From: Hyphomicrobiales bacterium
GTDB taxonomy: Bacteria > Pseudomonadota > Alphaproteobacteria > Rhizobiales > Rhizobiaceae
Direction: 5' to 3'
DNA length: 64,000 nucleotides
Assembly: GCA_900472175.1 (NCBI GenBank)
Contig: UCHD01000002.1
Span: forward strand, 171,986-235,985
Both the position numbers and the translations under genes were made by a program. The stretch's first letter is position 1. Every line of letters starts with the position of its first letter. This document shows, piece after piece, positions 3,999 through 48,811 of this stretch. Under the pieces are notes generated by a model. It searched no databases. It was given only the letters and a program-made list of their open reading frames with translations, and had not been told where the DNA came from.

Positions 3999-4056
3999 TC
4001 TCCTTTAATGCCGGTCACCTGAAGATCAACCGATGTGCAGTCTGCGTACACCTCTT

Positions 4057-4086: not shown

Positions 4087-4137
4087 GCTGGCTGCAGCAT
4101 TGGAAAGGAATATCTGCGGAGCCCCTTCGACGATCCG

Positions 4138-5646: not shown

Positions 5647-5652
5647 GGGTCT

Positions 5653-7839: not shown

Positions 7840-7918
7840 TTTGAATGCCTTGTTTTCCCGTCCTGTTGCCCCAAATGGTTTGATCCATGCCGCCGGCCGT
7901 AACGCGATGGCCAGCTTT

Positions 7919-25001: not shown

Positions 25002-25736
25002 TCATTTCGCCGTGTAAAGTGACCGCGAGCGTTCCAGATGTTTCAGCACGGCCTGCTCGGCGGCATCGGGATCGCGCGCTTCCAGGCAACTGATGATTTC
25101 TTCGTGTTCGGCCAGCGTGAATTTTTCCTTGCCGGTCCAGATCAGCATTTCGGTATGGTATTCCTTCAGCCAGGCAAGCATCGCCTCGCTGACTGCAATG
25201 TAGATCGGGTTGCGTGAGATCCGGGCGATCCGCGTGTGGAATGCCATATCGGCGGCGATGAAGGCTTCGGCGTCGCCCAGCGATGTGCGCTGCTGCTCGA
25301 GAATGTCGCGCAGGCTGGTGATATCATTGGCATCGCCCTTCAGTGCCGCCTCACGCGCCATGCCGCGCTCGAAGAAGATACGTGCACTTTTCAGGTGCTC
25401 CAGCGTATCCGACGATTTGGCCAGCATGATCTTCGCCGTCATGTCCATCTGCCGGAAGATCGATTGCGCCGTCAGTTCCAGCACCTTGGCGCGTTCGCCG
25501 TGCGAGATCACCACCAGCCCCATGCCCGCCAGCGCCTGCATTGCCTCGCGGATTGCCGGACGGCCGACGCCGAAGCGCTCCATCAGTTCCCGCTCGGACG
25601 GCATTTCGTCGCCGGGCTGCAACTCGCCGGAGGTGATCATCGCTTTCAACCGCGCGAAAACTTCGTCGGACAGTTTGCGGCGGACGATCTGTTCGGTTTG
25701 CTGGCCCATAGTGTCTCGCTGGTTTACATTCGCCAT
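25002..25736 (-). CDS. GntR-family regulator, FadR/FCD subfamily
   Basis: A 244-residue repressor-type protein. The N-terminal winged helix (about 12-80) reads 'LSDEVFARLKAMITSGELQP', 'MPSERELMERFGVGRPAIRE' and 'MQALAGMGLVVIS'. The C-terminal FCD ligand domain has the usual D-x-x-F-H ('DMAFHTRIAR') and 'EHEEIISCLEARDPDAAEQA' helices, which bind a metal and a small carboxylate. Start at ATG 25736; ATG 25709 is the fallback. Divergent to the RuBisCO-like gene, with an FCD-type half-palindrome between them that recurs before apnO. This marks it as the regulator of the apiose genes, with a pathway acid as probable inducer. Confidence 0.88.
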   Translation of the reverse strand: MANVNQRDTMGQQTEQIVRRKLSDEVFARLKAMITSGELQPGDEMPSERELMERFGVGRPAIREAMQALAGMGLVVISHGERAKVLELTAQSIFRQMDMTAKIMLAKSSDTLEHLKSARIFFERGMAREAALKGDANDITSLRDILEQQRTSLGDAEAFIAADMAFHTRIARISRNPIYIAVSEAMLAWLKEYHTEMLIWTGKEKFTLAEHEEIISCLEARDPDAAEQAVLKHLERSRSLYTAK

Positions 25737-25842
25737 CGTTATGCACCGCTTCCATCGCGAAGGAAACGAACACATCCACCTGTGAGCGTCACAGTCCACA
25801 TTGATTGTGGCGGATGCAAGCTTCCTCTTGCTTAATTGATAT

Positions 25843-25859
25843 ACTCATTATACCAGTTG
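25843..25859. promoter_or_regulatory. Candidate GntR operator, copy 1
   Basis: ACTCATTATACCAGTTG. The inner TCATTATACCA fits the FCD/FadR pattern TGGTNNNACCA in its right half. A second copy with one mismatch lies at 29906-29922. It is located between the divergent gntR and RLP genes. Confidence 0.6.
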
Positions 25860-25918
25860 CGGAAAACGTGCCAGCCGGGAACTGGCGGAAATTGCCATGC
25901 GGGAGATTTTGCGCGCCC

Positions 25919-27172
25919 ATGATCGTCGTCACCTACAGAATTGAAACGCCGGGCAGCATCGAGGCCATGGCGGAAAAGATCGCCAGCGACCAGTCGACCG
26001 GCACTTTCGTACCGGTTCCCGGCGAGACGCCGGAACTGAAGGCCCGGGTCGCGGCCCGCGTTCTTGCCATCCGCCCGCTTGCCGATGCGTCACAGCCAAG
26101 CTGGCCCGAGGCCGGTGCAGGTCATGGGCCGATCCGCCGTGCCGATGTCGATATCGCCTTCCCGCTTGATGCCATTGGCACCGATCTGTCCGCCCTGATG
26201 ACCATCGCGGTTGGTGGCATTTTCTCAATCCGTGGCATGACCGGCCTGCGCGTCGTCGATCTGAAGCTGCCGCAGGAATACAGGTCCGCCTATCCCGGCC
26301 CGCAATTCGGCCTGCCTGGCAGCCGCAAGCTTACCGGCGTCCATGACCGGCCGATCATCGGCACCATCGTCAAACCGGCGCTCGGCCTGCGTCCACACGA
26401 GACTGCTGAATTGGTCGGCGAACTGATCGCATCCGGCGTCGATTTCATCAAGGACGACGAGAAGCTGATGAGCCCGGCCTATTCGCCGCTCAGCGAGCGC
26501 GTCGCGGCCATCATGCCCAAAATTCTCGATCACGAGCAGAAGACCGGCAAGAAGGTGATGTATGCCTTCGGCATTTCGGCGACCGATCCCGACGAGATGA
26601 TGCGCAATCACGACCTGGTGCTGGCGGCAGGCGGCAATAGCGCCGTCGTCAATATCAACTCGATCGGCATGGGCGGCATGGCGTTCCTGCGCAAGCGGTC
26701 CGGCCTTGTCCTGCATGCCCATCGCAACGGCTGGGACGTGCTCACCCGCCATCCCGGCATCGGTTTCGATTTCAAGGTCTGGCAACAGTTCTGGCGGCTT
26801 CTTGGCGTCGACCAGTTCCAGATCAATGGCATCGGCGTCAAATACTGGGAGCCGGACGACAGTTTTGTCGAGAGCTTCAAGGCCGTCACCACGCCGCTGT
26901 TTGACCAGTCAGACTGCGCCCTTCCCGTCGCCGGTTCCGGCCAGTGGGGTGGGCAGGCGCCGGAAACCTATCGCCGCACCGGCCGCACCACCGATCTGCT
27001 CTATCTCTGTGGCGGCGGTATCGTCAGCCATCCCGGTGGCCCGGCGGCCGGCGTGCGGGCGGTGCAGCAGGCGTGGCAAGCGGCCGTCGCCGATATCCCG
27101 CTTGAAACCTATGCCAAGGATCACCCGGAGCTTGCCGCCTCCCTCAAGAAATTCGGCAGCGCCAGCGAGTAG
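25919..27172 (+). CDS. oiaX: RuBisCO-like protein, 3-oxo-isoapionate-4-phosphate transcarboxylase/hydrolase (OiaX)
   Basis: A 417-residue form IV RuBisCO-like protein, not a CO2-fixing enzyme. It keeps the RuBisCO active-site spine: K152 in 'TIVKPALGLRP' and the metal-binding carbamylated-lysine motif K178-D-D-E181 in 'GVDFIKDDE'. It lacks the loop-6 lysine context of true RuBisCO, having 'GGGIVSHPGG' at the phosphate site. In characterised D-apiose catabolism the RLP OiaX splits 3-oxo-isoapionate-4-phosphate to 3-phosphoglycerate and glycolate. The neighbours here (DUF1537 kinase, ApnO, ApsD, ApnL) are exactly that pathway. The start at 25919 is chosen by alignment to the RLP N terminus; SD spacing is long. 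Other RLP groups (MtnW, tetronate-linked) are less consistent with the context. Confidence 0.85.
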   Translation: MIVVTYRIETPGSIEAMAEKIASDQSTGTFVPVPGETPELKARVAARVLAIRPLADASQPSWPEAGAGHGPIRRADVDIAFPLDAIGTDLSALMTIAVGGIFSIRGMTGLRVVDLKLPQEYRSAYPGPQFGLPGSRKLTGVHDRPIIGTIVKPALGLRPHETAELVGELIASGVDFIKDDEKLMSPAYSPLSERVAAIMPKILDHEQKTGKKVMYAFGISATDPDEMMRNHDLVLAAGGNSAVVNINSIGMGGMAFLRKRSGLVLHAHRNGWDVLTRHPGIGFDFKVWQQFWRLLGVDQFQINGIGVKYWEPDDSFVESFKAVTTPLFDQSDCALPVAGSGQWGGQAPETYRRTGRTTDLLYLCGGGIVSHPGGPAAGVRAVQQAWQAAVADIPLETYAKDHPELAASLKKFGSASE

Positions 27173-27177
27173 ACGTC

Positions 27178-28521
27178 ATGATCGCACAGAACAATCCTCT
27201 CCTCTCCTACTATGGCGATGACCTGACGGGCTCCACCGATGTCATGGAGGCGCTGGCCTCCAACGGCGTCGAGACGGTGCTGTTCATGGATGTGCCGGAT
27301 GCGGCCCTGCTGAAGCGCTTTGGCCATTGCCGCGCCATCGGGCTTGCCGGAACCAGCCGCAGCGAAACGCCGGACTGGATGGACGAAAACCTGAAGCCGG
27401 CCTTCCGCTGGCTGAAGAGCCTTGGTGCCGATATCTGCCACTACAAGGTCTGCTCGACTTTCGATTCCAGCCCGAAGATCGGCAATATCGGCAAGGCCGT
27501 GGAGATCGGCAAGGGCCTGTTCGGCCAGCCATATGTTCCCGTTCTCGTCGGCGCGCCGCAGTTGAAGCGCTACACCGCTTTTGGCCATCTCTTTGCCGCC
27601 TATCAGGGCGAGGTCTACCGTATCGACCGCCACCCCGTGATGAGCCGCCATCCGGTGACGCCGATGGCCGAGGCCGACCTGCGCCTGCACCTGAGCGCCC
27701 AGACTGCGCTGAAAACACGGCTGGCTGATCTGTCCATGCTGGCCGCAACGGATGCGGACAGCAGGGTAGACGAACTTTGCCGGGATGCCGATGGCATGGT
27801 TCTGTTCGATGTCGACAGCCCGGAAAGCCAGTCCCATGCCGGCCGCCAGCTCTGGCGCCTCAGACGCCGAGGCGGCTGGTTCGTTACCGGTTCCTCCGGC
27901 GTCGAATACGCGCTGCTGACCGCCTGGAACGCCGCCGGACTGACGGAGGGAAGGAAAACCTTCCCTCTGCCCGGCAAGGCAGATCGCATCGCCGTTGTGT
28001 CCGGCAGCGTCTCGCCAACCACCGAGCGGCAGATCCGCCATGCAACGCAAAATGGTTTTTCCGGCATCAATCTCGATCCGCTGGAACTGCTCGGCGAAAA
28101 CGGTAATGCCGCTCTGGAGCAGGCAATTGCCAGTGGCCTCGACGGTCTCAAGCGGGGCGAAAGCGTCATTCTCAATACGGCGCTCGGCCCATCCGCCGAT
28201 CGCGGCGGCGATATTGACCGCATCCCCGGTAGCCGTCATCGCCTCGGCCGCTTGCTCGGAACCATCCTGCGCCGTCTTGTCGAGGAACAGCAATTGACCC
28301 GCGCCGTCATCGCCGGTGGCGATACGTCCAGCCATGCGCTGCGCGAATTGCATGTCCAGGCGCTAACGACGCTTTTGCCACTGCCGCAAACGCCGGGATC
28401 GCCGTTGTGCACCGCGCACGGCACATATCCTGCGACCAACGGCCTGCAGATCGCGCTCAAGGGCGGTCAGGTCGGGTCGGATGGCTATTTCGCGCAGATC
28501 AGGGATGGCCTTCAGGCGTAG
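27178..28521 (+). CDS. oiaK: DUF1537-family kinase, 3-oxo-isoapionate kinase (OiaK)
   Basis: A 447-residue four-carbon-acid-sugar-kinase-family enzyme. The N-terminal domain opens with the family's 'YYGDDLTGSTD' (D14, D15, T17, G18, D21) and has 'CHYKVCSTFDSSPKIGNIGK'. The C-terminal nucleotide-binding domain carries 'VVSGSVSPTTERQI', 'VIAGGDTSSHAL' and the closing 'GGQVGSDGYFAQIRDGL'. It begins 5 bases after the RLP gene, so the two form a unit: phosphorylate 3-oxo-isoapionate, then cleave. DUF1537 kinases also act on threonate, erythronate and denatonate; assignment to 3-oxo-isoapionate rests on the RLP and ApnO/ApsD/ApnL context. Confidence 0.85.
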   Translation: MIAQNNPLLSYYGDDLTGSTDVMEALASNGVETVLFMDVPDAALLKRFGHCRAIGLAGTSRSETPDWMDENLKPAFRWLKSLGADICHYKVCSTFDSSPKIGNIGKAVEIGKGLFGQPYVPVLVGAPQLKRYTAFGHLFAAYQGEVYRIDRHPVMSRHPVTPMAEADLRLHLSAQTALKTRLADLSMLAATDADSRVDELCRDADGMVLFDVDSPESQSHAGRQLWRLRRRGGWFVTGSSGVEYALLTAWNAAGLTEGRKTFPLPGKADRIAVVSGSVSPTTERQIRHATQNGFSGINLDPLELLGENGNAALEQAIASGLDGLKRGESVILNTALGPSADRGGDIDRIPGSRHRLGRLLGTILRRLVEEQQLTRAVIAGGDTSSHALRELHVQALTTLLPLPQTPGSPLCTAHGTYPATNGLQIALKGGQVGSDGYFAQIRDGLQA

Positions 28522-28538
28522 GCCGCATGCCGTCAAGC

Positions 28539-29543
28539 CTACTGGATTGCACGGGCGCCGCTGCGGCGCTCGTTGGGCGGGATGGGTGAAAACGATGCAC
28601 GCAGGCTGGCATTGAACTGCGCCAGCAGGTGCCGATCGAAATGCCCTTCCGACTTAAGCATCATCCGCAGGGTTTCTGCAGGTGTCCATGCCCGTTTGTA
28701 GGACCGTGCCGAGGTCATCGCATCATAGACGTCGCAGATTGCCGCGATCCGCGCCTGCGTGCTGATCTGCTTATCCGACAATCCGAAAGGGTAACCTTTT
28801 CCGTCGATCCGTTCGTGATGGTGAAGGCACACGTCCAGAACGATTTGCGGCATGTCGCTCTGGCGTGACAGCAATTCGTAGCCGCGAACCGGGTGCGTGC
28901 GGACTTCGGCCATTTCCTCGTCCGTGAGTGCGCCCTTCTTCGACAGTATGGCGTCCGGCATGAGCATCTTGCCGACATCGTGCAACAGGCCGCTGATACC
29001 AAGAATACGCACGGCCTGCTCATCGAACTTGAGGAAGCGCCCGAAATGCACCATCAGCGCGCTGACGGCGAGTGAATGCAGGAACGTATATTCGTCCTTG
29101 GTCTTGAGGCGGGTAATTCCAATCAGCGCTGCCGGATTGCTTTCCATTGACTTGGCAATCTGTTCGACCGCGCGATCGGCGGGTTCGAACCTGGCCGCTC
29201 CCCCCAGCCGCACATTCGAAAACAGCGTGTCGAGAAGCGGCCGTGTCTGCTCGATCGTCTGCAGCGCTTCCTTGATTTCCGTCTGGGTGAACGCCCGGGA
29301 AAGATCGGACAGGGATGACCGGTTTTCCTGCGCCTCGGGCAGAGGCCGGCCTGTACCCACATCCACGCCCCTGCGGGTGTCGATGACCAGGCTGATGATG
29401 TTGCTGGCCCTCACCTTTGCCGCAGCGCCTTCGTCCTTGAGCAGAAAACTGCGCATCGGCGCTGCCTCGTCTCGCAAAGGGTCTTCGATATCGGTGATAA
29501 ACATACCCACCCGGACCTGGTGCCGCTTGATGCGCTTGAGCAT
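28539..29543 (-). CDS. HD-GYP domain protein, probable cyclic-di-GMP phosphodiesterase
   Basis: A 334-residue protein with an N-terminal DUF3391-like segment ('RIKRHQVRVGMFITDIE') and a full HD-GYP domain from ~150: H188-D189 in 'LLHDVGK', H217 in 'THPVRGYELL', and a perfect 'HHERIDGKGYP' at 242-252. All metal ligands and the GYP signature are retained, so hydrolysis of cyclic-di-GMP is expected. No transmembrane segment or receiver domain is seen. It lies opposite to, and splits, the apiose genes: convergent with oiaK and divergent to apnO. It has no obvious part in sugar catabolism and may be an insertion into the cluster. Confidence 0.9.
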   Translation of the reverse strand: MLKRIKRHQVRVGMFITDIEDPLRDEAAPMRSFLLKDEGAAAKVRASNIISLVIDTRRGVDVGTGRPLPEAQENRSSLSDLSRAFTQTEIKEALQTIEQTRPLLDTLFSNVRLGGAARFEPADRAVEQIAKSMESNPAALIGITRLKTKDEYTFLHSLAVSALMVHFGRFLKFDEQAVRILGISGLLHDVGKMLMPDAILSKKGALTDEEMAEVRTHPVRGYELLSRQSDMPQIVLDVCLHHHERIDGKGYPFGLSDKQISTQARIAAICDVYDAMTSARSYKRAWTPAETLRMMLKSEGHFDRHLLAQFNASLRASFSPIPPNERRSGARAIQ

Positions 29544-29960
29544 GTCTATCGCTCGTCTTCAATCATCGCGCGCGTCTTCCTCCGGATTTACACCATAATA
29601 GATAAAGTCGTGAGTATAGATTTCGATCCCGCGTCTCCGTCGGGGAACAATCTCAAGTCTCCACCGAGAAACACTATCCGTGCTGCAACTCTCCCATGGG
29701 GGATATTTGGCCAGAACGATTTAATCAGCGTTAAAGTCTCAGCGCCAGTCGCAAAATAATCAAGGGTTACAGAAATCTACCTTTGATTGATTTTGCATCG
29801 AAAAATCCTCCTTTGGTTGTTTGTGCCATTGAGCGGACCCTCCGATCCCAGTTTCATGGACGATCTGCCCGTAAATATTCACCTCACCATGTGACATACT
29901 GATTGACTCATCATACCAGTTGTCTTAAATCATCGCGAAACAAACGCGCAGTGAGGAAAC
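29544..29960. other. Divergent promoter region, HD-GYP / apnO
   Basis: About 420 bases, more AT-rich than the flanking genes. It contains the second candidate GntR operator (29906-29922) close to apnO. No convincing gene is seen; a 79-codon frame at 29520-29759 overlaps the HD-GYP gene and looks random. Confidence 0.5.
29906..29922. promoter_or_regulatory. Candidate GntR operator, copy 2
   Basis: ACTCATCATACCAGTTG, one base different from the copy at 25843-25859; both are preceded by GAT and two variable bases. It lies 39 bases upstream of the apnO start. Suggests joint control of the two halves of the apiose gene set. Confidence 0.6.
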
Positions 29961-30788
29961 ATGACTTCGATCGCACTCTTCGGTGCTGGCGGCAAAATGG
30001 GCTACCGGCTTGCCAAGAACCTCAAGGGCTCACGTTTCGACGTGCGTCATGTGGAAGTAAGTGACGCCGGCAAGGCGCGTCTTCAAAATGACCTTGGTCT
30101 TTCCTGCGTCGACGTCGATGCAGCGCTTTCCGGGGTTGATGTTGTCATTCTCGCCGTGCCGGATACGGCCATCGGCAAGGTTGCTGCCGGTATTTCCGGC
30201 AAGCTTGCGGCGGGCACCATGGTTGTGGCGCTTGATGCGGCTGCCCCGTTTGCCGGCCATCTGCCGGAGCGCACTGACCTCACCTATTTCGTCACCCATC
30301 CCTGCCACCCGCCGATCTTCAACGACGAGACGGACATGCAGGCAAAGAAGGATCACTTCGGTGGTTTGTTTGCCAAACAGCATATCGTTTCGGCCCTGAT
30401 GCAGGGCCCGGAAGAAGCCTATGGCCTCGGCGAAGAGATCGCCAAGGTCATCTGGGCGCCGGTCATGCGCTCGCACCGCGTTACCGTCGATCAGATGGCA
30501 ATGCTGGAGCCGGGCCTGTCGGAAACCGTTGCCGCCTCGCTGCTGGTCGTCATGAAGCAGGCCATGGATGAATGCGTGAAGCGCGGCGTGCCGGAAGAGG
30601 CGGCCCGCGACTTCCTGCTCGGTCATCTCAACGTGCTCGGCGCTGTCATCTTCGGCGAAGTCCAGGGCGTGTTTTCCGATGCCTGCAACAAGGCCATCGA
30701 ATTCGGCATCCCCGCGCTGATGCGCGACGACTGGAAGAATGTCTTTGAACCCGAGGAGATCGCCGAAAGCATCCGGCGCATCACCTGA
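29961..30788 (+). CDS. apnO: D-apionate oxidoisomerase (ApnO)
   Basis: A 275-residue NAD-dependent enzyme. The N terminus has the Rossmann glycines 'GAGGKMG' (8-14) and 'DVVILAVPDTAIGK'. The C-terminal part ('VTVDQMAMLEPGLSETVAAS', 'GHLNVLGAVIFGEVQG') belongs to the phosphogluconate-dehydrogenase-like C-terminal family, not the 6PGD decarboxylase itself. In D-apiose catabolism ApnO converts D-apionate to 3-oxo-isoapionate, the substrate of the neighbouring kinase. Start at 29961 with GTGAGGAAA directly upstream. First gene of the second apiose transcription unit, which includes the importer. Confidence 0.82.
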   Translation: MTSIALFGAGGKMGYRLAKNLKGSRFDVRHVEVSDAGKARLQNDLGLSCVDVDAALSGVDVVILAVPDTAIGKVAAGISGKLAAGTMVVALDAAAPFAGHLPERTDLTYFVTHPCHPPIFNDETDMQAKKDHFGGLFAKQHIVSALMQGPEEAYGLGEEIAKVIWAPVMRSHRVTVDQMAMLEPGLSETVAASLLVVMKQAMDECVKRGVPEEAARDFLLGHLNVLGAVIFGEVQGVFSDACNKAIEFGIPALMRDDWKNVFEPEEIAESIRRIT

Positions 30789-30797
30789 CCGAAATAG

Positions 30798-31811
<1,014 letters not shown>

Positions 31812-31826
31812 TCCTCCCCAAGGATG

Positions 31827-31863
31827 CGCACAGGGCAGTTTCATTCTGCCCTGTGCGTTTTTT
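31827..31863 (+). terminator. Intra-operon Rho-independent terminator/attenuator
   Basis: A perfect 12-bp stem CGCACAGGGCAG (31827-31838) with CTGCCCTGTGCG (31846-31857), 7-base loop, then six T. It separates the binding-protein gene from the DUF2291, ATPase and permease genes. As no new promoter is obvious, it probably works as a partial terminator and mRNA stabiliser. Confidence 0.85.
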
Positions 31864-31885
31864 GCCATTTGACGGAGTGACTTTC

Positions 31886-32542
31886 ATGCCGAATTCCCGG
31901 CCCGCTGCCGCTATCCCGCTTTCCCTTGCGCTGGCCACCCTGTTGGTCCTCGCCGGGTGCAAGATCATCAAGACTCCGACAGCGGAAGAGGCTGCAGAAG
32001 CGGCAAGCGGCGGCTTCAATCCCGGCCGTCAGGTCGCCGAAATCTGGGACAGCAAGGTCATCCCGTTCCTGGAAAAACGCGCTGGCCCGTTCCAGGAGGT
32101 TGCTGCTCTATCCAAATCCGATCTCGATGCCGCAGCGGCAAAATATGGTCACAAGGAAAAGGAGGGTAGCGCCCCCTGGACCTTTGCAGCCAGGGTTTCC
32201 GGAACGATCATCAAGGCCGAGACCGCATCGCGCGCGGCCTATCTCGATACCGATGTCGATGGTGACGGCGTGGCCGACATGCGCATCCAGATCGGCCCGG
32301 TCATCCGTGGCACGGCGATTCGCGACAGTCTCGATTTTGTCAATTTCAACGAATTCAAGAACCAGATCCAGTGGGCAGAATTCGGCAAGGCGTTCAATGT
32401 CCATGTCAACGGCTTGATACTGGAAAAACTGCCGCGCGAAGGCCTGGAAGGCAAGAAGGTCGAGGCGCTCGGCGCCTACCCGCTGCCCTCTGCCGGCCAA
32501 CCGGCGCTGCTGACGCCCGCCACCATCACGATCGGCGGCTGA
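31886..32542 (+). CDS. DUF2291 family lipoprotein associated with sugar importer
   Basis: A 218-residue protein with a lipoprotein signal: hydrophobic 'PLSLALATLLVLAG' and lipobox 'LAGC'. The mature part matches DUF2291, with 'DGDGVADMRIQIGPVIRGT', 'IRDSLDF' and 'FKNQIQWAEF'. A relative precedes the erythritol importer genes at 44135; they share R-[IV]-Q-x-G-P-x-I-x-G-T-x-x-R-D and F-x-x-F-x-N-Q-I-Q. Position between binding protein and ATPase suggests an accessory envelope component of the importer. No biochemical role is known to me. Start at 31886 with CGGAG upstream. Confidence 0.8.
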   Translation: MPNSRPAAAIPLSLALATLLVLAGCKIIKTPTAEEAAEAASGGFNPGRQVAEIWDSKVIPFLEKRAGPFQEVAALSKSDLDAAAAKYGHKEKEGSAPWTFAARVSGTIIKAETASRAAYLDTDVDGDGVADMRIQIGPVIRGTAIRDSLDFVNFNEFKNQIQWAEFGKAFNVHVNGLILEKLPREGLEGKKVEALGAYPLPSAGQPALLTPATITIGG

Positions 32543-32543
32543 C

Positions 32544-34099
<1,556 letters not shown>

Positions 34100-34100
<1 letters not shown>

Positions 34101-35164
34101 TGACCACCGCAACCGCGACTGAAAAAGTACCGGCAGCCGACGGCGGCTCCATTCTCCTGACGCTGATGAAGCTCCGAACCTTCATCGCGCTGTTTGCCGT
34201 CATCGCCTTCTTCTCGATTTTTGCGCCGAACTTCCTGTCGACTGCAAACATCATCCTGATGTCGAAGCATGTTGCGCTGAACGCCTTTCTCGCCATGGGC
34301 ATGACCTTCGTGATCATCACCGGCGGCATCGACCTGTCGGTCGGCTCGATCGTCGGTCTCTGCGGCATGGTGGCCGGCGGCCTGATCCTCAACGGTATCG
34401 ATCTGCAGATCGGCTACACGATGTATTTCAACGTCGTCGAGGTCTGCCTGATCACGCTGGTGGTCGGCATCCTCATCGGCGCGGTCAACGGGCTCTTGAT
34501 CACCAAGCTCAATGTTGCGCCATTCATCGCCACGCTCGGAACCCTCTATGTCGCCCGTGGCTTCGCGCTGCTTTCATCCGATGGCCAGACTTTTCCGAAC
34601 CTGATCGGCAAGGAAGAACTCGCTACCACCGGTTTCGGCTTTCTCGGCTCCGGCCGCATCATCGGCCTGCCGGTGTCGATCTGGATCCTCATCGTCGTGG
34701 CGCTGGCCGCTGCTTATGTCGCCAAATATGTGCCGATTGGCCGCCAGATCTTCGCTGTCGGCGGCAACGAGCGCGCGGCCCGCATGTCCGGCATCCGCGT
34801 CGATCGCGTCAAGATGTTCGTCTACATGTTCTCCGGCTTCTGTGCCGCCATCGTCGGCATCGTCATCTCGTCGGAACTGATGGCGTCGCATCCGGCAACC
34901 GGCAATTCCTTCGAACTCAACGCCATCGCCGCAGCCGTTCTCGGCGGCACCTCGATGTCCGGCGGCCGCGGCACGATCGGCGGCACCATCATCGGCGCCT
35001 TCGTCATCGGGATCTTGTCCGACGGCTTGGTGATGATGGGCGTGTCCTCCTTCTGGCAGATGGTCATCAAGGGTATCGTCATCATCGTCGCCGTGGTGGT
35101 CGACCAGGCACAAAGACGGTTGCAGCAGCAGGTGACGTTGATGCAATTGGCAAAGAAGGGCTAA
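34100..35164 (+). CDS. Ribose-type ABC importer, permease
   Basis: A 354-residue membrane protein of the RbsC/XylH family with eight to ten hydrophobic segments. Landmarks: 'AMGMTFVIITGGIDLSVGS', 'NGLLITKLNVAPFIATLGTL', 'GRQIFAVGGNERAARMSGI' (ATPase-coupling loop) and 'LGGTSMSGGRGTIGGTIIG'. Start at ATG 34100 overlapping the ATPase stop; a GTG immediately before it is in frame. Last transporter gene before apsD. Confidence 0.92.
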
Positions 35165-35182
35165 CGTCTACATTCCTTGCGG

Positions 35183-35215
35183 TTCCCTCTTCTTCCCACT
35201 GGGGAGAAGAGGGAA
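35183..35215. repeat. Short intergenic palindrome, RIME-related
   Basis: Arms TTCCCTCTTCTTCCC and GGGGAGAAGAGGGAA, 14 of 15 paired, loop ACT. The inner sequence resembles the CTTCTCCCC/GGGGAGAAG hairpin of the repeat at 14134-14237. It could also act as a processing site between the permease and apsD genes. Confidence 0.6.
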
Positions 35216-35293
35216 ACCATCGCCAGCGGCCAACACATATGCAAGTGCCCGCTCCGTACACGGAAGAGGCTTTTGAGTCTTGAAGGAAACGAT

Positions 35294-36328
35294 ATGTCAG
35301 ATCTCAAAGGCGCGCTGATCGGCTGCGGCTTCTTCGCCGTCAACCAGATGCATGGCTGGAACGATGTCAAGGGTGCGGAGATCGTCGCCATCTGCGACCG
35401 TGATCCCGAGCGCCTGAAGATCGTCGGCGACCAGTTCGGCATTGAACGCCGCTACACCGATGCGGCGCAGATGTTTGCCGACAGCGGCTTCGACTTCGTC
35501 GATATCGCCACCACCGTGAACAGCCACCGTACGCTTGTTGAGATGGCTGCCGCCTACAAGGTTCCGGCGATCTGCCAGAAACCGTTTGCTCCGACACTTG
35601 CCGATGCCAAGGCCATGGTTGCCGCCTGCACCAATGCAGGCATTCCGCTGATGATCCACGAAAATTTCCGCTGGCAAACGCCGATCCAGGCCGTCCGCAA
35701 AGTGTTGGACAGTGGCGCGATCGGCACGCCCTTCTGGGGCCGCTTCTCGTTCCGCTCCGGCTACGACGTGTTTTCCGGCCAGCCCTATCTCGCCGAAGGC
35801 AAGCGCTTCATCATCGAGGACCTCGGCATCCACACCTTGGACATCGCCCGCTACATTCTCGGCGACGTGACCTCGCTGTCGGCACGTACCAAGCGTGTCA
35901 ATCCGAAGATCAACGGCGAGGATGTGGCCACCATCCTGCTTGATCATGACAGTGGCGCCACCTCCATCGTCGATGTCAGCTATGCCACGAAGCAATCGAT
36001 CGAGCCTTTTCCGGAAACGCTGATCGAGATCGACGGAACCGAAGGATCGATCCGCCTGTCGCAAGGCTACGAACTGCAGGTCACCAATGCCGAAGGAACA
36101 GTCAACACCGACGTCGCCCCGGCGCTTCTGTCGTGGGCATCGCGCCCGTGGCACAATATCCAGGAGAGCGTTTTCGCCATCCAGCAGCACTGGGCGGATA
36201 GCCTGAAGGGCGGCACGGAAACCTCTACCTCCGGTGCCGATAATCTGAAGACCTTCGCGCTGGTCGAGGCCGCCTATGAAAGTGCCGCCACCAAAGTCAT
36301 GATTGATATCGGAACCCTGCTGAAATGA
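35294..36328 (+). CDS. apsD: D-apiose dehydrogenase, Gfo/Idh/MocA family (ApsD)
   Basis: A 344-residue NAD(P)-dependent oxidoreductase. The N-terminal Rossmann loop is 'IGCGFFA' (9-15). The catalytic segment is 'CQKPFAP' (Q95-K96-P97; the family norm is EKP), and later 'EDLGIHTLDIARYILG' carries the active-site D and H. In characterised D-apiose pathways ApsD oxidises D-apiose to D-apionolactone. The start at 35294 sits behind GAAGGAAAC. The following gene, the lactonase, overlaps its stop by ATGA, matching consecutive steps. Gfo/Idh enzymes have many substrates; the assignment is contextual but strong. Confidence 0.83.
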   Translation: MSDLKGALIGCGFFAVNQMHGWNDVKGAEIVAICDRDPERLKIVGDQFGIERRYTDAAQMFADSGFDFVDIATTVNSHRTLVEMAAAYKVPAICQKPFAPTLADAKAMVAACTNAGIPLMIHENFRWQTPIQAVRKVLDSGAIGTPFWGRFSFRSGYDVFSGQPYLAEGKRFIIEDLGIHTLDIARYILGDVTSLSARTKRVNPKINGEDVATILLDHDSGATSIVDVSYATKQSIEPFPETLIEIDGTEGSIRLSQGYELQVTNAEGTVNTDVAPALLSWASRPWHNIQESVFAIQQHWADSLKGGTETSTSGADNLKTFALVEAAYESAATKVMIDIGTLLK

Positions 36329-38193
36329 CCGGTGCAGAAACTGCCTTCAGGCTCTATGGAACGACGCAGTCCGAACCTGCCCCGCGGACCTTCAAAGCCG
36401 GAAAACTGACGGCGCAGCTGTCCGGCGGCAACCTGCGGGCTGTCACCTATGACGGTGTCGAGGTACTGCGCGCGATTTCCTATCTGATCCGCGATCGTGA
36501 CTGGGGGACCTACGATCCCGAACTGTCCGGCATCGCGGTCACCGAAACCGCTGCCGGCTTCACCGTTTCCTACACCGCCCGATGCAACGGACCGGACGAT
36601 ACCACTCTGGAAATCGCTGCATCGATCGAAGGCCGCGCCGACGGCACCCTGATTTTTAAGGGTGAGGCCAGTTCCGCCACCGGCTTCGAGACCAACCGCT
36701 GCGGCTTCTGCATCCTCCATCCGATCGTCGGCGTTGCCGGGACCCCGGTGACAGTCGAGCATGTGGATGGCGTTATAGAAGCGACGGATATGCCCGATCT
36801 GATCGAGCCTTGGCAACCGTTCAAGGACATGCGCGCCATCACCCACACCGCTCTTCCCGGCGTCAGCGTCGAATGTCGCATGGAAGGCGACACGTTCGAG
36901 ATGGAAGACCAGCGCAATTGGTCTGATGCCTCTTACAAAACCTATGTCCGGCCGCTCGCACTGCCCTGGCCCTACCGCATCCCGGCAAACGAGCGGGCCT
37001 GTCAGCAGGTGACGTTGACGATCACCGACAATCGTCCGGCTACAGACGGTCTTGCTGCACTCAGCGGGAACATCATCCGGCTTGTCCCTGGAGACGCATC
37101 CGGCATCATGCCCGCCATCGGTCTGTTGATCACTCCTGAGGAAGCCAAAGCCAGTCTCGCCGCGCTTCAACAGTCCAGTGCGCCAAGGGTGCAGGATCTG
37201 CTCTTTCATTTCGACCCTCAAGCCGGCCACGGCGCCGGCGCGTTCAAGGATTTCGCCGCGATCGCCGCCATTCATGACGGCACCACGACGCTGGAGATCG
37301 CCGTCCCCTGCCAACGTCCGCTCGACGAGGAATTTCAGGAAATCGCTGGCTGGATACGGGCCGCAAATTTCGTGCCCGGCGCCATCATGGTCTGCCCCTC
37401 CGTTGACCGGCAATCGACCCCGCCCGGCAGCACGTGGCCGGACTGCCCGCCGCTCGAAGACGTCTACGCGGCAGCGGCAAATGCCTTCGCCGGCATCCGC
37501 CTCGGCGGCGGCATGCTCTCCTATTTTACCGAGCTGAACCGCAAGCGCGTGCCGGGTGAAAATCTCGCCTTCATCAGCCACTGCACCAACCCGATCGTCC
37601 ATGCGGCGGATGATGTCAGTGTCATGCAGACGCTCGAAGCCCTGCCCTTCATCACCCGGTCCGTTCGCGCCATTTATGGCGAGAAACCCTACCGCCTCGG
37701 CCCGGCCACCATTCCGATGCGTCAAAACCCCTATGGCAGCCGGACGATGGACAATCCGCACGGCGCTCGCATCCCGATGGCGAACTGCGACCCGCGCCAT
37801 AACGGCCAGTTCGCTGCCGCCTTTGCGGCCGGATACGCCGCATCGGTGCTGGATGCTGGTCCCGAAACGCTGACGCTGTCGGCTCTCACAGGCCCTTTCG
37901 GGCTCTATGCGGGCAAGGCCGAGCCGGTCGAGGACGGCGGCAACCGCCCGCTTCATGCCATCGTCGAAGGGCTGGCGGAGCTTGCCGGACAAAGATGGCA
38001 GGCCGTCATCTCATCCGCTCCGGAAAAGGTTTTGGCGTTCACGGTAGAAACGGTGGCCGGAGGAGCGACCTGGATCGTCAACCTCACGGCGGAGGAGCAG
38101 TCCATCGACACGACGCAGCTCGGCTTGCGTGTCCCGCAGATGCGCCTTGCTCCATTCGAAGTAACTAGCACGGCCCATCGAACCGGCGCATAG
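36325..38193 (+). CDS. apnL: D-apionate lactonase (ApnL)
   Basis: A 622-residue protein. Its N-terminal ~250 residues ('FRLYGTTQSEPAPRTFKAGK', 'GVEVLRAISYLIRDRDWGTY', 'EMEDQRNWSDASYKTYVRPL', 'LALPWPYRIP') match my recollection of ApnL, the large lactonase opening D-apionolactone to D-apionate. The C-terminal half looks like a TIM-barrel-type domain ('LFHFDPQAGHGAG', 'RLGGGMLSYFTELNRKR', 'SHCTNPIVHAADDVSVMQTL'). No signal peptide, so cytoplasmic. It starts in an ATGA overlap with apsD. With ApsD, ApnO, OiaK and OiaX it completes a route from D-apiose to 3-phosphoglycerate and glycolate. Confidence 0.82.
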   Translation: MTGAETAFRLYGTTQSEPAPRTFKAGKLTAQLSGGNLRAVTYDGVEVLRAISYLIRDRDWGTYDPELSGIAVTETAAGFTVSYTARCNGPDDTTLEIAASIEGRADGTLIFKGEASSATGFETNRCGFCILHPIVGVAGTPVTVEHVDGVIEATDMPDLIEPWQPFKDMRAITHTALPGVSVECRMEGDTFEMEDQRNWSDASYKTYVRPLALPWPYRIPANERACQQVTLTITDNRPATDGLAALSGNIIRLVPGDASGIMPAIGLLITPEEAKASLAALQQSSAPRVQDLLFHFDPQAGHGAGAFKDFAAIAAIHDGTTTLEIAVPCQRPLDEEFQEIAGWIRAANFVPGAIMVCPSVDRQSTPPGSTWPDCPPLEDVYAAAANAFAGIRLGGGMLSYFTELNRKRVPGENLAFISHCTNPIVHAADDVSVMQTLEALPFITRSVRAIYGEKPYRLGPATIPMRQNPYGSRTMDNPHGARIPMANCDPRHNGQFAAAFAAGYAASVLDAGPETLTLSALTGPFGLYAGKAEPVEDGGNRPLHAIVEGLAELAGQRWQAVISSAPEKVLAFTVETVAGGATWIVNLTAEEQSIDTTQLGLRVPQMRLAPFEVTSTAHRTGA

Positions 38194-38306: not shown

Positions 38307-39239
38307 TCAGATGTTGAGATCAGCCACGCCCGAATCAATATGAGGTGCCCAGAAGGCGATGCTTTCGGCGATGGCGGGGATGACGTTGCGGTCATCCGGT
38401 TCCCGCTCCTTGAACGACAGTTCCAGGCAGATTTCATTATCGACCGCGCCACCTTGATGGAATGCTGCCAGCAAAGGTTCGGGCTGAACCCGGCCGGTGG
38501 CATTGTGTTCGGCGGTGAAGGGACGGTGTCCGCCCTTGTCCATCTTGCTCTGCTTGATATGGATGATCGGCGAAACCTTCGGCACCGCGCGCGCCCAGGC
38601 ATAAGGGTCGGTATCATCCGGGTCGGGTGACGTGACGTCGCCGTGATCGATATCGGCCATCATCCACATCGGGATCGCCATATCGGCCGCCGTCAGCCTG
38701 TCCTGCAGCGCCATGGATTCCGCGATGGTATGGCCGAACTCGCGCCCCACGGACATGGGCTCCCAGAAGACGTAATCCAGCCCGGCCGACTTGCCGTGTT
38801 CGGCCACTTCCGCCCAGCAATCGATGGCGATCTGTGTCAAGTCCTCGCGGCGCTGCGGATCGTCGAAATCGGCAAAGGTGAAGATGGCGAACTGGGTGCC
38901 GACCGACTTGGCCCCAAGGTCTGCCGAAATGTCGGCGAAGGTCTTGAACCAGTCGACATAATAGCGGCGCACGTCGCGGTCCGGATGGCCGAAATGGTTG
39001 AGCCGTCCATAGGGACCGGTCATGCCCGATGTGACACGCACGCCGGTTCGGTCAAGTGCCACGCGAAAACTGCGCGTCATCCGGCGGATTACGGGCGCTG
39101 GCCATGATGGATTGATGAATTCATGGGTCAGCTGCAGATCGCGGATCTTCAAGTCGCGTGCGACCGTCTCGATAAGGTCGTCCGGAGCGGCGAAACGGTT
39201 GACCAGAGGATTGGTATTCAACGAGAGGGTCAGGGACAT
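38307..39239 (-). CDS. eryC: L-erythrulose-1-phosphate isomerase/epimerase, EryC-type TIM barrel
   Basis: A 310-residue member of the AP-endonuclease-2/xylose-isomerase-like TIM barrel family. Metal and substrate residues typical of sugar-phosphate isomerases are visible: 'FWEPMSVGREFGHTIAE', 'MADIDHGDVTSPDPDDTDPY', 'IIHIKQSKMDKGGHRPF' and 'ICLELSFKEREPDDR'. In erythritol catabolism EryC converts L-erythrulose-1-phosphate to D-erythrulose-4-phosphate. It is the last gene of the minus-strand eryDABC set. The later enzymes (EryH/TpiB and EryI/RpiB) are not in this window. Start at 39239 with GAAGAGAAG upstream. Confidence 0.88.
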   Translation of the reverse strand: MSLTLSLNTNPLVNRFAAPDDLIETVARDLKIRDLQLTHEFINPSWPAPVIRRMTRSFRVALDRTGVRVTSGMTGPYGRLNHFGHPDRDVRRYYVDWFKTFADISADLGAKSVGTQFAIFTFADFDDPQRREDLTQIAIDCWAEVAEHGKSAGLDYVFWEPMSVGREFGHTIAESMALQDRLTAADMAIPMWMMADIDHGDVTSPDPDDTDPYAWARAVPKVSPIIHIKQSKMDKGGHRPFTAEHNATGRVQPEPLLAAFHQGGAVDNEICLELSFKEREPDDRNVIPAIAESIAFWAPHIDSGVADLNI

Positions 39240-39290
39240 GATGGCTTCTCTTCGGATTTCGAACGATTACTACTTGCGGGCAGTCCGCGT

Positions 39291-40814
39291 TTACCCGGAA
39301 GCCCGGGCGCTATGTGCGCCGTCCGCTTCAAACCAGGTGGCAAAGGCTGCCTTCTCGATTGCGCTCAGATGCAGGCCCTGCTTCGTCCGGCGTTGAAGAA
39401 TGTCTTCGGCTGTCATCGCCCATTCGTGGGCCATCAGATAGCGCACTTCGGCTTCATATAAATGAGCCCCGAAATGCTTGCCAAGACCACTGAGCGAGGT
39501 CGCGTCGCCAATAACCTTTCCGATCCGCGCACCGTAGAGCCGGCCGTAATGGTGGATAAGCGTGCGCGGCATCCAGGGGTAGGCATGGCGCAGGCTTTCG
39601 GTGAACTGGACGAAATCGGCGTTCTCGATCTCGCCGCCGGGCAGGATCGATTGGCGTGTCCAGTTTCCGCCCATGCTGGGGAAGAACTTTGCAATTTTCT
39701 CGATCGCATGTTCGGACAGCTTGCGGAACGTGGTGATCTTGCCGCCGAACACGCTCAAGAGAGGCGCGCCATCGGTTTCGTCGAGATCGAACGTATAGTC
39801 ACGCGTTACGGCCGATGGATTGCCCTGGCCATCGTCGAACAGCGGCCGGACACCTGAGAATGTCTCAAGCACATCTTCACGCCGCAGCGTTTCCTTGAAA
39901 TACCGGTTGACGGCCGCCAGCAGGTATTCGACCTCGGCCTCTTCGGTCTTCACCTCTTCCGGCGCGCCATCATACGGAATGTCGGTGGTGCCGATCAGCG
40001 CCTTGTCGCCTTCGTAGGGGTTGATGAAGATCACCCGCTTGTCATGGTTCTGCACCAGGTAGGCCTGCTGGCCTTCCCAGAATTTCGGCACGATGATGTG
40101 GCTGCCCTTTACCAGCCGCACATTGCGGCGGCTGTTTGAACCGGCAACGCGGCCGACGATATCGTTGACCCAGGGGCCGCCGGCATTGACGACGACGCGG
40201 GCGCGGACGGTGCGGATTTCGCCGGTGCGCTCGTTCCGCATCTGGACGGTCCAGCCGCCGTTTTCACGCCGGGCGCTGATGCAGGCGGTGCGCGTCAGGA
40301 TTTCGGCACCCTTTTCGGCAGCCCCGACGGCGTTGAGAACGACAAGGCGGGCATCATCCACCCAGCAGTCGGAATACTCGAAGCCTTTGGTGTATTTGTC
40401 CATGATCGGCGCGCCCTCTGGATCACGGCGCAGGTCGAGCGAACGGGTCCCCGGCAATTTCTTGCGGCCGCCGAGATGGTCGTAGAGGAACAGCCCGAGC
40501 CGAACGAGCCAGGCAGGACGATCGTCCGGGCTGTGCGGCAGGACAAAGCGCATCGGCCAGATGATGTGGCTGGCCGAATTCAGCAGAACCTCCCGTTCGA
40601 TCAGGGCCTCCCGCACCAGGCGGAACTCGTAATATTCCAGATAGCGCAGGCCGCCGTGGACAAGCTTGCCCGACCGGGAGGATGTTCCCTGCGCGAGGTC
40701 GTCTTTCTCGCACAGGATAACGGAGAGACCCCGGCCCGCCGCATCGCGCGCGATACCCGCGCCGTTGATGCCGCCCCCGATAATGAACAGGTCGATCATC
40801 CGGGAATCATTCAT
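39291..40814 (-). CDS. eryB: Erythritol-phosphate dehydrogenase (FAD, GlpD-like)
   Basis: A 507-residue flavoprotein of the GlpD/DAO family. The FAD Rossmann motif is 'GGGINGAGIARDAAGRG' near the N terminus, followed by 'TSSRSGKLVHGGLRYLEYYE', 'VVNAGGPWVNDIV', 'GTTDIPYDG', 'SGVRPLFDDG' and 'FGGKITTFRKLSEHA', all as in glycerol-3-phosphate dehydrogenase. Adjacency to the erythritol kinase gene and eryC identifies it as EryB, feeding electrons to the respiratory chain at the membrane. Start at 40814 behind a perfect AAGGAG. A second GlpD-like paralogue lies at 51117. Confidence 0.9.
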   Translation of the reverse strand: MNDSRMIDLFIIGGGINGAGIARDAAGRGLSVILCEKDDLAQGTSSRSGKLVHGGLRYLEYYEFRLVREALIEREVLLNSASHIIWPMRFVLPHSPDDRPAWLVRLGLFLYDHLGGRKKLPGTRSLDLRRDPEGAPIMDKYTKGFEYSDCWVDDARLVVLNAVGAAEKGAEILTRTACISARRENGGWTVQMRNERTGEIRTVRARVVVNAGGPWVNDIVGRVAGSNSRRNVRLVKGSHIIVPKFWEGQQAYLVQNHDKRVIFINPYEGDKALIGTTDIPYDGAPEEVKTEEAEVEYLLAAVNRYFKETLRREDVLETFSGVRPLFDDGQGNPSAVTRDYTFDLDETDGAPLLSVFGGKITTFRKLSEHAIEKIAKFFPSMGGNWTRQSILPGGEIENADFVQFTESLRHAYPWMPRTLIHHYGRLYGARIGKVIGDATSLSGLGKHFGAHLYEAEVRYLMAHEWAMTAEDILQRRTKQGLHLSAIEKAAFATWFEADGAHSARASG

Positions 40815-40887
40815 GTTGTTCTCCTTTGGCAAGGCCAATCGATAGATGCGCTGTGCCGGTCTTCGTTCTGGCCGCGCCGTAATGCCG

Positions 40888-42456
40888 TCATTTCGCTACG
40901 TGTCCCGCACGCGCCATTTCGTCCCACACCGGCTCAAGGGCGCGGCGGGCGTTGAGATAGGGCGGGAACATCCGGGAATAGGTTTCGACCAGTGTGCCAT
41001 CGGGCGCTTCGGCTGGGCCGAGCAGCGGCGTCACCCATTCGGCGATGCAGGCGTTCATGTCCGCGTATATACCGGTGGCGACGGCAGCGATCATGGCGGC
41101 GCCGGCAGCGCCTGCCTCTTCACGCGAGGAGATACGGGTCGGCGATCCGACCGCAGCCGCGATCACCGAGCGCAATGACGGTGAGCGCGCGGCGCCACCG
41201 GTTATCCGCAGTTCGTCAGGCATTCCGCCCATCGCCGCATAACAATCGCGCGTGCCCATCCCCAGCCCTTCGATGACGGCCCGCAACAGATCGGGAAAGC
41301 GATGTCCGCTGCTGAGGCCGATAAATCCTGCGCGCGCATCCGGATTGACGAACGGTCCGCGCTCTCCGGCCTCCGAAATATAGGGGTGGTAAAGGATCGC
41401 ACCCGGCTGGCTTGCCGCAAGCCATCCTTCGATCCGCCCGACCAGTTCGGCATGGGAAACCGGATGCCCCAGTTCGCTCATCAGGTCGCCGGCCATTCGC
41501 AGCGCCCAGTCGATATTGAGTGTCGCTGCCATGTTCGATTGCGCCGGCGCCACAATGCCGGGTATCGGCAGGACGACCATATAGCCCGTCCCTTCAGCAT
41601 TCAGAATGACATCGTCAACCGCCATTGCCCGCATGTGCATGCCGGTGGAGCCGATCGTCGAACAGGCAGACGCCCTGCCCTCCGTAAAGATACCGGCCCC
41701 CAGCGCCGTGCAGGCGAAATCGACATAGCCGAGGCTAACCGGCGTACCTTCCAGAAGCCCGGTCTCTCTTGCCGCAGCCGGGGAGAGCGGATGACTGATC
41801 TGTGTCCCGTCGATGATTTCGGGCAGTAGATGACGTTTTTCTGTCAAGCCTAGCGCAGCGATGACCGTGTCGTCATACTGCCGCGTGCGAAAATCCCCGA
41901 ATGTGAAGCTCGCCTCCGACGGATCGGTGGCGCGGACGCCCGTCAGGTTCAGGTAGAGCCAATCCTTGCAGTGAAGGGCAATGTCCGCGCGTCCGAGCAG
42001 TTCCGGGTTTTCTGATGCCATATGGGCGAGCTGGGCGCCTTGCTGACAGGTGGAAAGTCCGGTGCCAGTTCTTTCGAAACGGGTGCGGTCACCTGGTGCG
42101 GCGCTCAGTTTGCGGACGGTCAGTGCTGCGCGTGCGTCAAGCCAAAGCCAGGCGTCGCCTGCCGGTTTGTCATCCTTGCCCACCAGCCAGGTGCCGTCAC
42201 CCTGCCCTGTCACGCCAAGTGCGGCCGTGCGTTGCGCGAGACGCTCGACCTTGGTAGCGAGATCGCGGATAGTCCGGGCGCAATCAGCCCACGTGTTTTC
42301 CAGCGATTGGAAGGCGGCACCGTCCTCACCCGTCATATAGGTATTGGTCACGGAAGCCGCAGCAATCTGGCGGCCGGTCAGGTCAAAGGCGATCGCCTTG
42401 ATCACCGAAGTCCCGGCGTCGATGCCAATCAGGATATCTTTGCCAGCATGCGGCAT
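40888..42456 (-). CDS. eryA: Erythritol kinase (FGGY family)
   Basis: A 522-residue FGGY kinase: 'ILIGIDAGTSVIKAIAFDLTG' phosphate-1 loop, 'ALGVTGQGDGTWLVGKD', 'STIGSTGMHMRAM', and 'LRITGGAARSPSLRSVIAA' adenosine-binding stretch. It phosphorylates erythritol as the first cytoplasmic step. Length and the 'GLSTCQQGAQLAHMASENPE' region fit EryA rather than XylB or GlpK. The ATG at 42456 has AGGAGG upstream (a TTG lies just before). Between eryD and eryB on the minus strand. Confidence 0.9.
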   Translation of the reverse strand: MPHAGKDILIGIDAGTSVIKAIAFDLTGRQIAAASVTNTYMTGEDGAAFQSLENTWADCARTIRDLATKVERLAQRTAALGVTGQGDGTWLVGKDDKPAGDAWLWLDARAALTVRKLSAAPGDRTRFERTGTGLSTCQQGAQLAHMASENPELLGRADIALHCKDWLYLNLTGVRATDPSEASFTFGDFRTRQYDDTVIAALGLTEKRHLLPEIIDGTQISHPLSPAAARETGLLEGTPVSLGYVDFACTALGAGIFTEGRASACSTIGSTGMHMRAMAVDDVILNAEGTGYMVVLPIPGIVAPAQSNMAATLNIDWALRMAGDLMSELGHPVSHAELVGRIEGWLAASQPGAILYHPYISEAGERGPFVNPDARAGFIGLSSGHRFPDLLRAVIEGLGMGTRDCYAAMGGMPDELRITGGAARSPSLRSVIAAAVGSPTRISSREEAGAAGAAMIAAVATGIYADMNACIAEWVTPLLGPAEAPDGTLVETYSRMFPPYLNARRALEPVWDEMARAGHVAK

Positions 42457-42474
42457 CAAACAGCCTCCTCTTCG

Positions 42475-43443
42475 TTACGGCTGCTGAGGCGCAGCGCTAA
42501 TAAGCGCTGACGCAGTCTGCTCGTCTATGATCAGGCCACTGAGACAGCCGCTGAGCAAAGCCGAGCGGATTGCCGCAACTTTTCCCGGGCCGCCGGCAAT
42601 CGCCACGATCCGGCGCGCCTTCATGCTGTCCAGGCTGGGCGACAGGGTCCGTTCACCCAGCGTGGTCTCGACCGGCTTGCCTTGCGCATCGAAGAAATGA
42701 CCAAGCATTTCGCCGACGCCGCCCTGATCGCGCACATCCTGCATTTCCGGCACCTCGATCATCTGCGAGACGACGAGCTGCGAATCGAGTTCCGCGGTAC
42801 CGATGCCGACCAGCATCAGATCCGCCTGGGCAGCCAGGTCAAAGACGTGACGCACGCCGCGCTGGGAAAGGAGCACTTCCCGGTCCTCGACCGAGTTGGC
42901 AAAGAATGGCACCGGCATGACATAGGATACTGCGCCGGTCTTTTCAGCCAAACGGTGCATGACGTCATGCGGGTTGGCCGCATAGTTGCGCGTCAGCCCA
43001 CCAAGCAGAGACACGAAGCGCACATCGCCAGCGTCCACATGTGGCATGGCGGCAATGGCGGCGGCCAGGGTGCGGCCGTTGCCGATGCCGATTACCTGGC
43101 CTTGCAGGTTCTTGATTTCCCGTTGCAGGAATTCCGCACCGGCAACGCCGAGTGCGCGCAGGAGCAGGCTCTTGTCGTAGAGATCAGGCAGGACCTCGCA
43201 ATAATCCAGTCCGAACAGGCCGGCGAGTTTGGTTTCGATGGCGACGCATTCGGTCACGTCGCCATGGATGGAAAATTTCACCACCCCATTCTGGTTTGCC
43301 CACATGATCAGCCGGTGCGCCTTGACGTTCGGTATGCCAAGCCGCGCGGCAACCTCCGCCTGCGTCAGGCCGCCGACGTAATGGAGCCATGCCGCCCGGA
43401 CGGCCAGGCTGTCGTCGCGCTCACGATTTGTAACCATTCGCAT
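42475..43443 (-). CDS. eryD: Erythritol catabolism repressor EryD (SorC/DeoR-like sugar-binding regulator)
   Basis: A 322-residue regulator. N-terminal HTH (about 10-55): 'WLHYVGGLTQAEVAARLGIP' and 'NVKAHRLIMWANQNG'. The large C-terminal SorC-type sugar-binding domain has 'VIGIGNGRTLAAAIAAM', 'FVSLLGGLTRNYA', 'LMLVGIGTAELDSQLV' and 'IVAIAGGPGKVAAIRSAL'. EryD represses the ery operon in Brucella and rhizobia and is relieved by erythritol. Here it is the first gene of the minus-strand unit and divergent to the importer genes, so one intergenic region can serve both. Start at 43443 with GGGAGGAG upstream. Confidence 0.9.
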   Translation of the reverse strand: MRMVTNRERDDSLAVRAAWLHYVGGLTQAEVAARLGIPNVKAHRLIMWANQNGVVKFSIHGDVTECVAIETKLAGLFGLDYCEVLPDLYDKSLLLRALGVAGAEFLQREIKNLQGQVIGIGNGRTLAAAIAAMPHVDAGDVRFVSLLGGLTRNYAANPHDVMHRLAEKTGAVSYVMPVPFFANSVEDREVLLSQRGVRHVFDLAAQADLMLVGIGTAELDSQLVVSQMIEVPEMQDVRDQGGVGEMLGHFFDAQGKPVETTLGERTLSPSLDSMKARRIVAIAGGPGKVAAIRSALLSGCLSGLIIDEQTASALISAAPQQP

Positions 43444-46329: not shown

Positions 46330-46355
46330 TTACCGAGTTTAATGGAGCCCTGACT

Positions 46356-47486: not shown

Positions 47487-47521
47487 CTGGCATACGACCA
47501 ACCATCAAGGGAGAGAGTAAA

Positions 47522-48764: not shown

Positions 48765-48811
48765 CGCACGGATAGCGGTATCCGGATGCCCGATCAGTGA
48801 CGAGGAACATC

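Follow-up and report, generated by a model that had tools for sequence, protein, structure and literature searches.

The window analysed here comprises 64,000 nucleotides of a Hyphomicrobiales bacterium (assembly GCA_900472175.1, contig UCHD01000002.1, positions 171,986 to 235,985), and its positions 25002-38193 carry a gene cluster built around a RuBisCO-like protein (RLP). Judged by sequence comparison, this cluster very probably encodes the RLP-dependent D-apiose pathway in its decarboxylating form, with a tail that would run through two isomerases, TpiB and DerI, encoded on another contig (C13) of the same genome. Every gene that the initial annotation had placed in 25002-38193 is present there, and its reading holds for the pathway and for most of the enzyme names but not for the reaction products, given as 3-phosphoglycerate and glycolate, nor for its remark on a missing tail.

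The RLP (25919..27172, + strand, 417 aa) scored 784 bits over its full length against the NCBIfam model for OiaX (NF042437, cut-off 700), which bears the name 3-oxo-isoapionate-4-phosphate decarboxylase. Its active-site K152 and K178-D-D-E181, numbered from the ATG at 25919, were confirmed residue by residue and are exact. A quick tree with 121 rows places 74 of them in the OiaX clade, which has a Shimodaira-Hasegawa-like approximate likelihood ratio test (SH-aLRT) support of 100 and holds the RLP of the window and that of Rhizobium rhizogenes. The RLP groups with those named OiaX and apart from the MtnW-like type, whose lone row is the genome's own second RLP, far outside the clade on a very long branch; an MtnW-type RLP is excluded by this tree with its one MtnW-like member. 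The second RLP (L007, contig C13, in the stretch 2516-8029) scores 190.8 bits, below cut-off, and has the metal site KDDH versus KDDE; the genes ahead of it encode an APH-type kinase, MtnA and a transketolase that is split. A further class of RLPs in the Rhizobiaceae, for which 40 of 46 listed matches were fetched, scores 379-454 bits against OiaX with 40-48% identity in most loci; the RLP of the window falls outside this other class, in the OiaX clade.

An RLP decarboxylase pathway for D-apiose was reportedly described by Carter et al. in 2018 in Agrobacterium radiobacter K84, a strain that we take to belong to the species Rhizobium rhizogenes. The same set of enzymes, by name, is found in the window, and the RLP is 84-86% identical to the OiaX of three R. 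rhizogenes loci (785.8 bits against OiaX for the RLP of L043). The cluster of the window differs in being split by an HD-GYP gene and followed by an erythritol-type operon, and in having tpiB-derI on the other contig.

ApnL, a predicted D-apionate lactonase of 622 aa (36325..38193, +), reached 975.1 bits against NF049900 (cut-off 750), and with OiaX and ApnL both above curated cut-offs and the RLP outside the MtnW-like type, the initial assignment to the RLP branch of D-apiose catabolism is supported. The OiaK candidate (27178..28521, +) is a putative 3-oxo-isoapionate kinase with PF07005 and PF17042 (SBD_N and NBD_C, the former DUF1537), the ApnO candidate (29961..30788, +) a putative D-apionate oxidoisomerase of PGDH_C type with PF16896 at 238.7 bits, and the ApsD candidate (35294..36328, +) a putative Gfo/Idh/MocA D-apiose dehydrogenase with PF01408 and PF22725. 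The importer and GntR/FCD regulator were both recovered as first described. The former is of the ribose-type ATP-binding cassette (ABC) kind and comprises a periplasmic binding protein (30870..31811, +; PF13407, below cut-off for the RbsB family), an ATPase (32544..34100, +) and a permease (34097..35164, +), with a DUF2291 predicted periplasmic lipoprotein as a further member of the importer unit (31886..32542, +; PF10054, 203.9 bits). This lipoprotein, the opposite-strand HD-GYP gene and the erythritol-type operon are items beyond the initial annotation. The regulator is NanR-like (25002..25799, -; NF003011, 347.4 bits against a cut-off of 260; PF00392 and PF07729) and divergent from OiaX.

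In the proposed direction of flow, D-apiose would be taken up by the ribose-type importer, which we infer to carry it, ApsD would oxidise it to the lactone, ApnL would open the lactone to D-apionate, ApnO would oxidise and rearrange D-apionate to 3-oxo-isoapionate, OiaK would phosphorylate the latter and OiaX would remove CO2 to leave an erythrulose phosphate. This product of OiaX would be L-erythrulose 1-phosphate. The TIM-family TpiB of contig C13, with putative LerI activity, and the RpiB-family DerI would then lead to D-erythrose 4-phosphate, which would enter the pentose phosphate pathway. The assembly gave no match to PF13204, the family searched for an apiosidase releasing apiose from plant polymers.

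Relatives were compared in two sets, which partly overlap (L008 and L151, for example) and are not independent. The first consists of 80 named loci, the best 80 of 439 relatives in a genome contig scan, with RLPs 83-98% identical and flanks of at most 10 kb, which leaves some loci incomplete. They come from Rhizobium, Pararhizobium, Brucella/Ochrobactrum and other Hyphomicrobiales, and contain the GntR gene and OiaK in 80/80, ApsD in 78/80, ApnO in 76/80, ApnL in 73/80, and the binding protein, ATPase and permease in 69/80 each. A chance neighbourhood is excluded by the gene order kept across the named loci. The second set is a sample of 297 genomes from the organism's own family, with OiaX called at the NF042437 cut-off; it was found in 59 genomes, covering 32 of 109 genus codes. 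The RLP apiose cluster is an ordinary rhizobial trait and a member of an already known pathway.

LerI and DerI convert erythrulose 1-phosphate to erythrose 4-phosphate, according to passages of PMC10733421, and if OiaX makes the former, isomerases of both types would be needed to reach the latter. A census of the genome found one RpiB and two triosephosphate isomerases (TPIs), and the lone RpiB is DerI with 248.0 bits against NF051858 (cut-off 240). In an RpiB tree of 41 rows it lies in a 30-row branch with an SH-aLRT support of 99, an identical sister copy counted; 27 of its branch-mates are from stretches without the erythritol-type gene EryC, mostly inside OiaX operons, and one is from a stretch with EryC. 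The TpiB tree was less clear than that of RpiB. TpiB and/or RpiB occurred in the fetched stretch of 25/80 named loci and 12/59 OiaX regions of the family sample, lying between OiaK and ApnO in 20 and 6 of these, respectively, versus 0/40 fetched stretches of the other RLP class, and this genomic company fits erythrulose phosphate and CO2 as the products of OiaX. DerI was above cut-off in 88 of the 297 genomes, including 5 of 32 with the other RLP class but not OiaX and, as background, 24 of 206 with neither class; G287, of the same genus as the present organism and without OiaX, is also without DerI.

A 14-bp operator-like sequence, ACTCATNATACCAG, is located in the GntR/OiaX intergenic region (ACTCATTATACCAG, 25843..25856, +) and 5' of ApnO (ACTCATCATACCAG, 29906..29919, +), with no other exact copy in the assembly. 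Two further places appear when one mismatch is allowed, and the control, the pattern reversed, had no match. At one mismatch or fewer, all 80 named loci have it in the 260 bp that precede OiaX; it also precedes ApnO in 68/80 and ApsD in 4, and 4 sites lie elsewhere. A copy in any position was seen in 54/59 OiaX regions of the family sample versus 12/40 regions of the other class. Counting exact inverted repeats in the DNA before OiaX pointed to no clear operator, and ACTCATNATACCAG was spotted by eye in the inverted-repeat output and then counted, so that its conservation upstream of OiaX is partly circular, which does not apply to its rarity in the genome. The GntR protein probably binds these sites; acting before oiaX and before apnO it would govern two units, with the C13 isomerases left under their own DeoR-type regulator. 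The second site, before ApnO, accounts for the tolerance of the opposite-strand HD-GYP gene. No statement on the operator-like site was found in passages of the literature, and one may be published elsewhere.

Several observations weigh against a decarboxylating apiose pathway with its tail on C13. The OiaK candidate scores 465.4 bits, below the NF042436 cut-off of 700, although this cut-off looks too strict for the family since 10/10 kinases tested from such clusters fall below it (281.8-520.5 bits). ApnO and ApsD have fitting Pfam families and a conserved position, with no NCBIfam equivalog above cut-off for either. On C13, unlinked to the apiose cluster, DerI has a TPI and a DeoR regulator as neighbours. 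By its score (410.6 bits, cut-off 293) this TPI is an ordinary triosephosphate isomerase; its position suggests that it acts as LerI. At L085, L142 and L143, and L157 too, RpiB is present with no TpiB in reach. The co-occurrence of DerI with OiaX, in 59/59 genomes with OiaX versus 29/238 without, speaks for the pathway, but its Fisher's P of 1.3e-40 is uncorrected for relatedness, and it may arise because both traits follow plant-associated life. Finally, ACTCATNATACCAG was not found at the C13 isomerases in the fetched 16 kb, even at two mismatches.

A module for another branched sugar or sugar acid close to D-apiose, in which OiaX would catalyse the same chemistry, is improbable. OiaX-class RLPs do occur in clusters without ApsD, ApnL or ApnO, and D-apiose is so far a predicted substrate of the importer, yet ApnL clears its curated cut-off by a wide margin and all five enzyme names recur in Rhodobacteraceae strain LCG007, which according to passages of PMC11747546 grew on D-apiose and has five enzymes ending in 3-oxoisoapionate-4-phosphate decarboxylase (EC 4.1.1.121). 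LCG007 belongs to another family and was likened to the present cluster by enzyme names only.

Passages of a review (PMC6302742) ascribe decarboxylation to the A. radiobacter K84 RLP and transcarboxylation/hydrolysis to that of Xanthobacter, and it is to the latter activity that 3-phosphoglycerate and glycolate, the products first proposed, belong. That the RLP of the window is such a transcarboxylase/hydrolase is very improbable. The activity is reported in the same passages for another RLP with the same substrate, the KDDE metal site is common to OiaX and the other RLP class, and the genome has GlcD-like proteins, the best at 456.1 bits and below the cut-off of 567.9, so that use of glycolate is conceivable. 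The RLP of the window is however far above the OiaX cut-off, versus the scores given above for the family's other class, and many loci of the latter carry the sugar enzymes one would expect (an OiaK-like kinase in 32/40, an ApnO-like gene in 19/40) yet neither TpiB nor RpiB was seen in any of the 40. On the OiaX score and on this contrast between the RLP classes, 3-phosphoglycerate and glycolate were rejected as products. With OiaX as a decarboxylase there is no glycolate to account for, so that its fate, left unencoded in the initial annotation, drops out and the onward steps lie elsewhere in the genome.

The other RLP class is possibly the transcarboxylase/hydrolase reported for Xanthobacter. 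A good candidate for the other activity is the RLP of L211, on a conjugative plasmid of Shinella sumterensis, which is 49% identical and of the other class; its neighbours are PGDH_C, Gfo/Idh, an importer, a kinase and a NanR-type regulator, one exact operator-like site is present, and neither TPI nor RpiB is annotated in the stretch. On a plasmid of Rufibacter tibetensis (Bacteroidota, L196) an RLP and a sugar-acid kinase adjoin the pectin-related genes GH28 and pectinesterase.

RLP knockouts of R. etli CFN42 (mutant C21-2) and R. phaseoli CIAT652 (mutant 63N1) are described in passages of PMC8914248, which relate the neighbouring genes to ribose transport and propose biotin-independent carboxylation. 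On the CIAT 652 plasmid pC the RLP gene RHECIAT_PC0000964 is 84.7% identical to that of the window and scores 785.4 bits as OiaX, and it is very probably the published one, which the paper lists under RHECIAT_RS30265/RS30625. The R. etli CIAT 652 pC operon RHECIAT_PC0000963-0974 contains GntR, OiaX, the kinase, a gene in the place of ApnO, the ribose-type importer, an oxidoreductase and a gene in the place of ApnL, in the same order as in the window, and differs in having tpiA and rpiB inside the operon, which are unlinked in the present genome. That the RLP of the window is a CO2-fixing enzyme, as proposed for these counterparts, is scarcely credible: although the rlp mutants are said not to have regained growth without biotin in two conditions and carboxylation in CIAT652 is stated to be reduced, the printed CIAT652 fixation values are opposite to the text (mutant 1047.3, wild type 630.2), the passages of the paper (PMC8914248) have no occurrence of apiose, and the gene itself sits in an apiose operon with tpi and rpiB and scores as OiaX. 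No statement linking the R. phaseoli RLP to OiaX was found in passages of the literature, and such a link may be published elsewhere.

The HD-GYP-type protein within the cluster (28539..29543, -; DUF3391 and HD_5) was found in 5/80 named loci with 72-100% identity and is a lineage-specific gene that is probably not a part of the pathway. In L031 about 6.6 kb of extra DNA lies between the HD-GYP gene and ApnO.

The erythritol-type operon (38307-43443, -) begins 113 bp past ApnL and reads, from 43443 to 38307, SorC regulator, FGGY kinase, FAD dehydrogenase and TIM-barrel epimerase. The EryD-like SorC-type regulator (42475..43443, -) is below cut-off for the LsrR/DeoR family models, the EryA-like FGGY kinase (40888..42459, -) shares 67.4% identity with the annotated Erythritol kinase EryA of Marinovum algicola DG 898, the EryB-like FAD dehydrogenase (39291..40838, -) scores 861.8 bits against NF009906 and is read as EryB from operon context, and the EryC-like sugar-phosphate epimerase (38307..39239, -; PF01261) is 71-86% identical to EryC-like genes of 8 ery-type loci. 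Curated models name the EryB-like protein a glycerol-3-phosphate dehydrogenase and leave EryA, EryC and EryD unnamed. Rhizobial erythritol loci have the form eryABCD-eryR-tpiB-rpiB in passages of PMC3599248; the present operon has the eryD-A-B-C gene types and the DeoR-TpiB-RpiB trio of C13 resembles eryR-tpiB-rpiB, but the trio stands apart from the operon, and the RpiB of the trio clusters with RpiBs of the apiose-operon type. From these gene types an erythritol identity of the operon is likely. Because the genome has one DerI, the operon would drain through the same two C13 isomerases as the apiose pathway. EryC-like genes lie near OiaX in 5/80 named loci and 3/59 family regions. Divergent from the operon is a second ribose-type importer with DUF2291 (44135..48481, +), putatively EryEFG-like, and adjoining this importer are an FGGY kinase, a DeoR regulator and a GlpD-like FAD dehydrogenase (48797-52832); in L012 the same set is directly upstream of GntR-OiaX.

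OiaX-class RLPs with 69-70% identity are also present on conjugative plasmids of S. fredii GR64 (Sinorhizobium, L203), Rhizobium acidisoli (L209) and Agrobacterium salinitolerans (L200), where the clusters lack ApsD, ApnL and ApnO and encode aldo/keto reductases, a lactonase-like protein, an OiaK-like kinase and a BKACE-type protein. TPI, RpiB, an aldolase and a fructose-bisphosphatase are alongside in two of the three; none of these was in the stretch shown for the third. Bradyrhizobium elkanii has a similar gene set with an RLP of 481.1 bits, below the OiaX cut-off, and neither TPI nor RpiB in the stretch. It is conceivable, and put forward tentatively, that OiaX-class RLPs could provide a decarboxylation step shared by the D-apiose route and an uncharacterised branched-sugar route on plasmids, and that both, as well as erythritol, would be channelled to erythrose 4-phosphate by a single TpiB-DerI trunk.

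The carbon balance of the pathway is corrected to one CO2 and a C4 sugar phosphate, not a C3 acid and glycolate, and a photorespiration-like clean-up would therefore be unneeded. For R. etli and R. phaseoli, the comparison suggests that the RLP is an apiose decarboxylase, in place of the biotin-independent carboxylase that had been proposed. If the adjacent operon is indeed for erythritol, the use of apiose and of erythritol would meet at one isomerase pair, both being relevant to life on plants.

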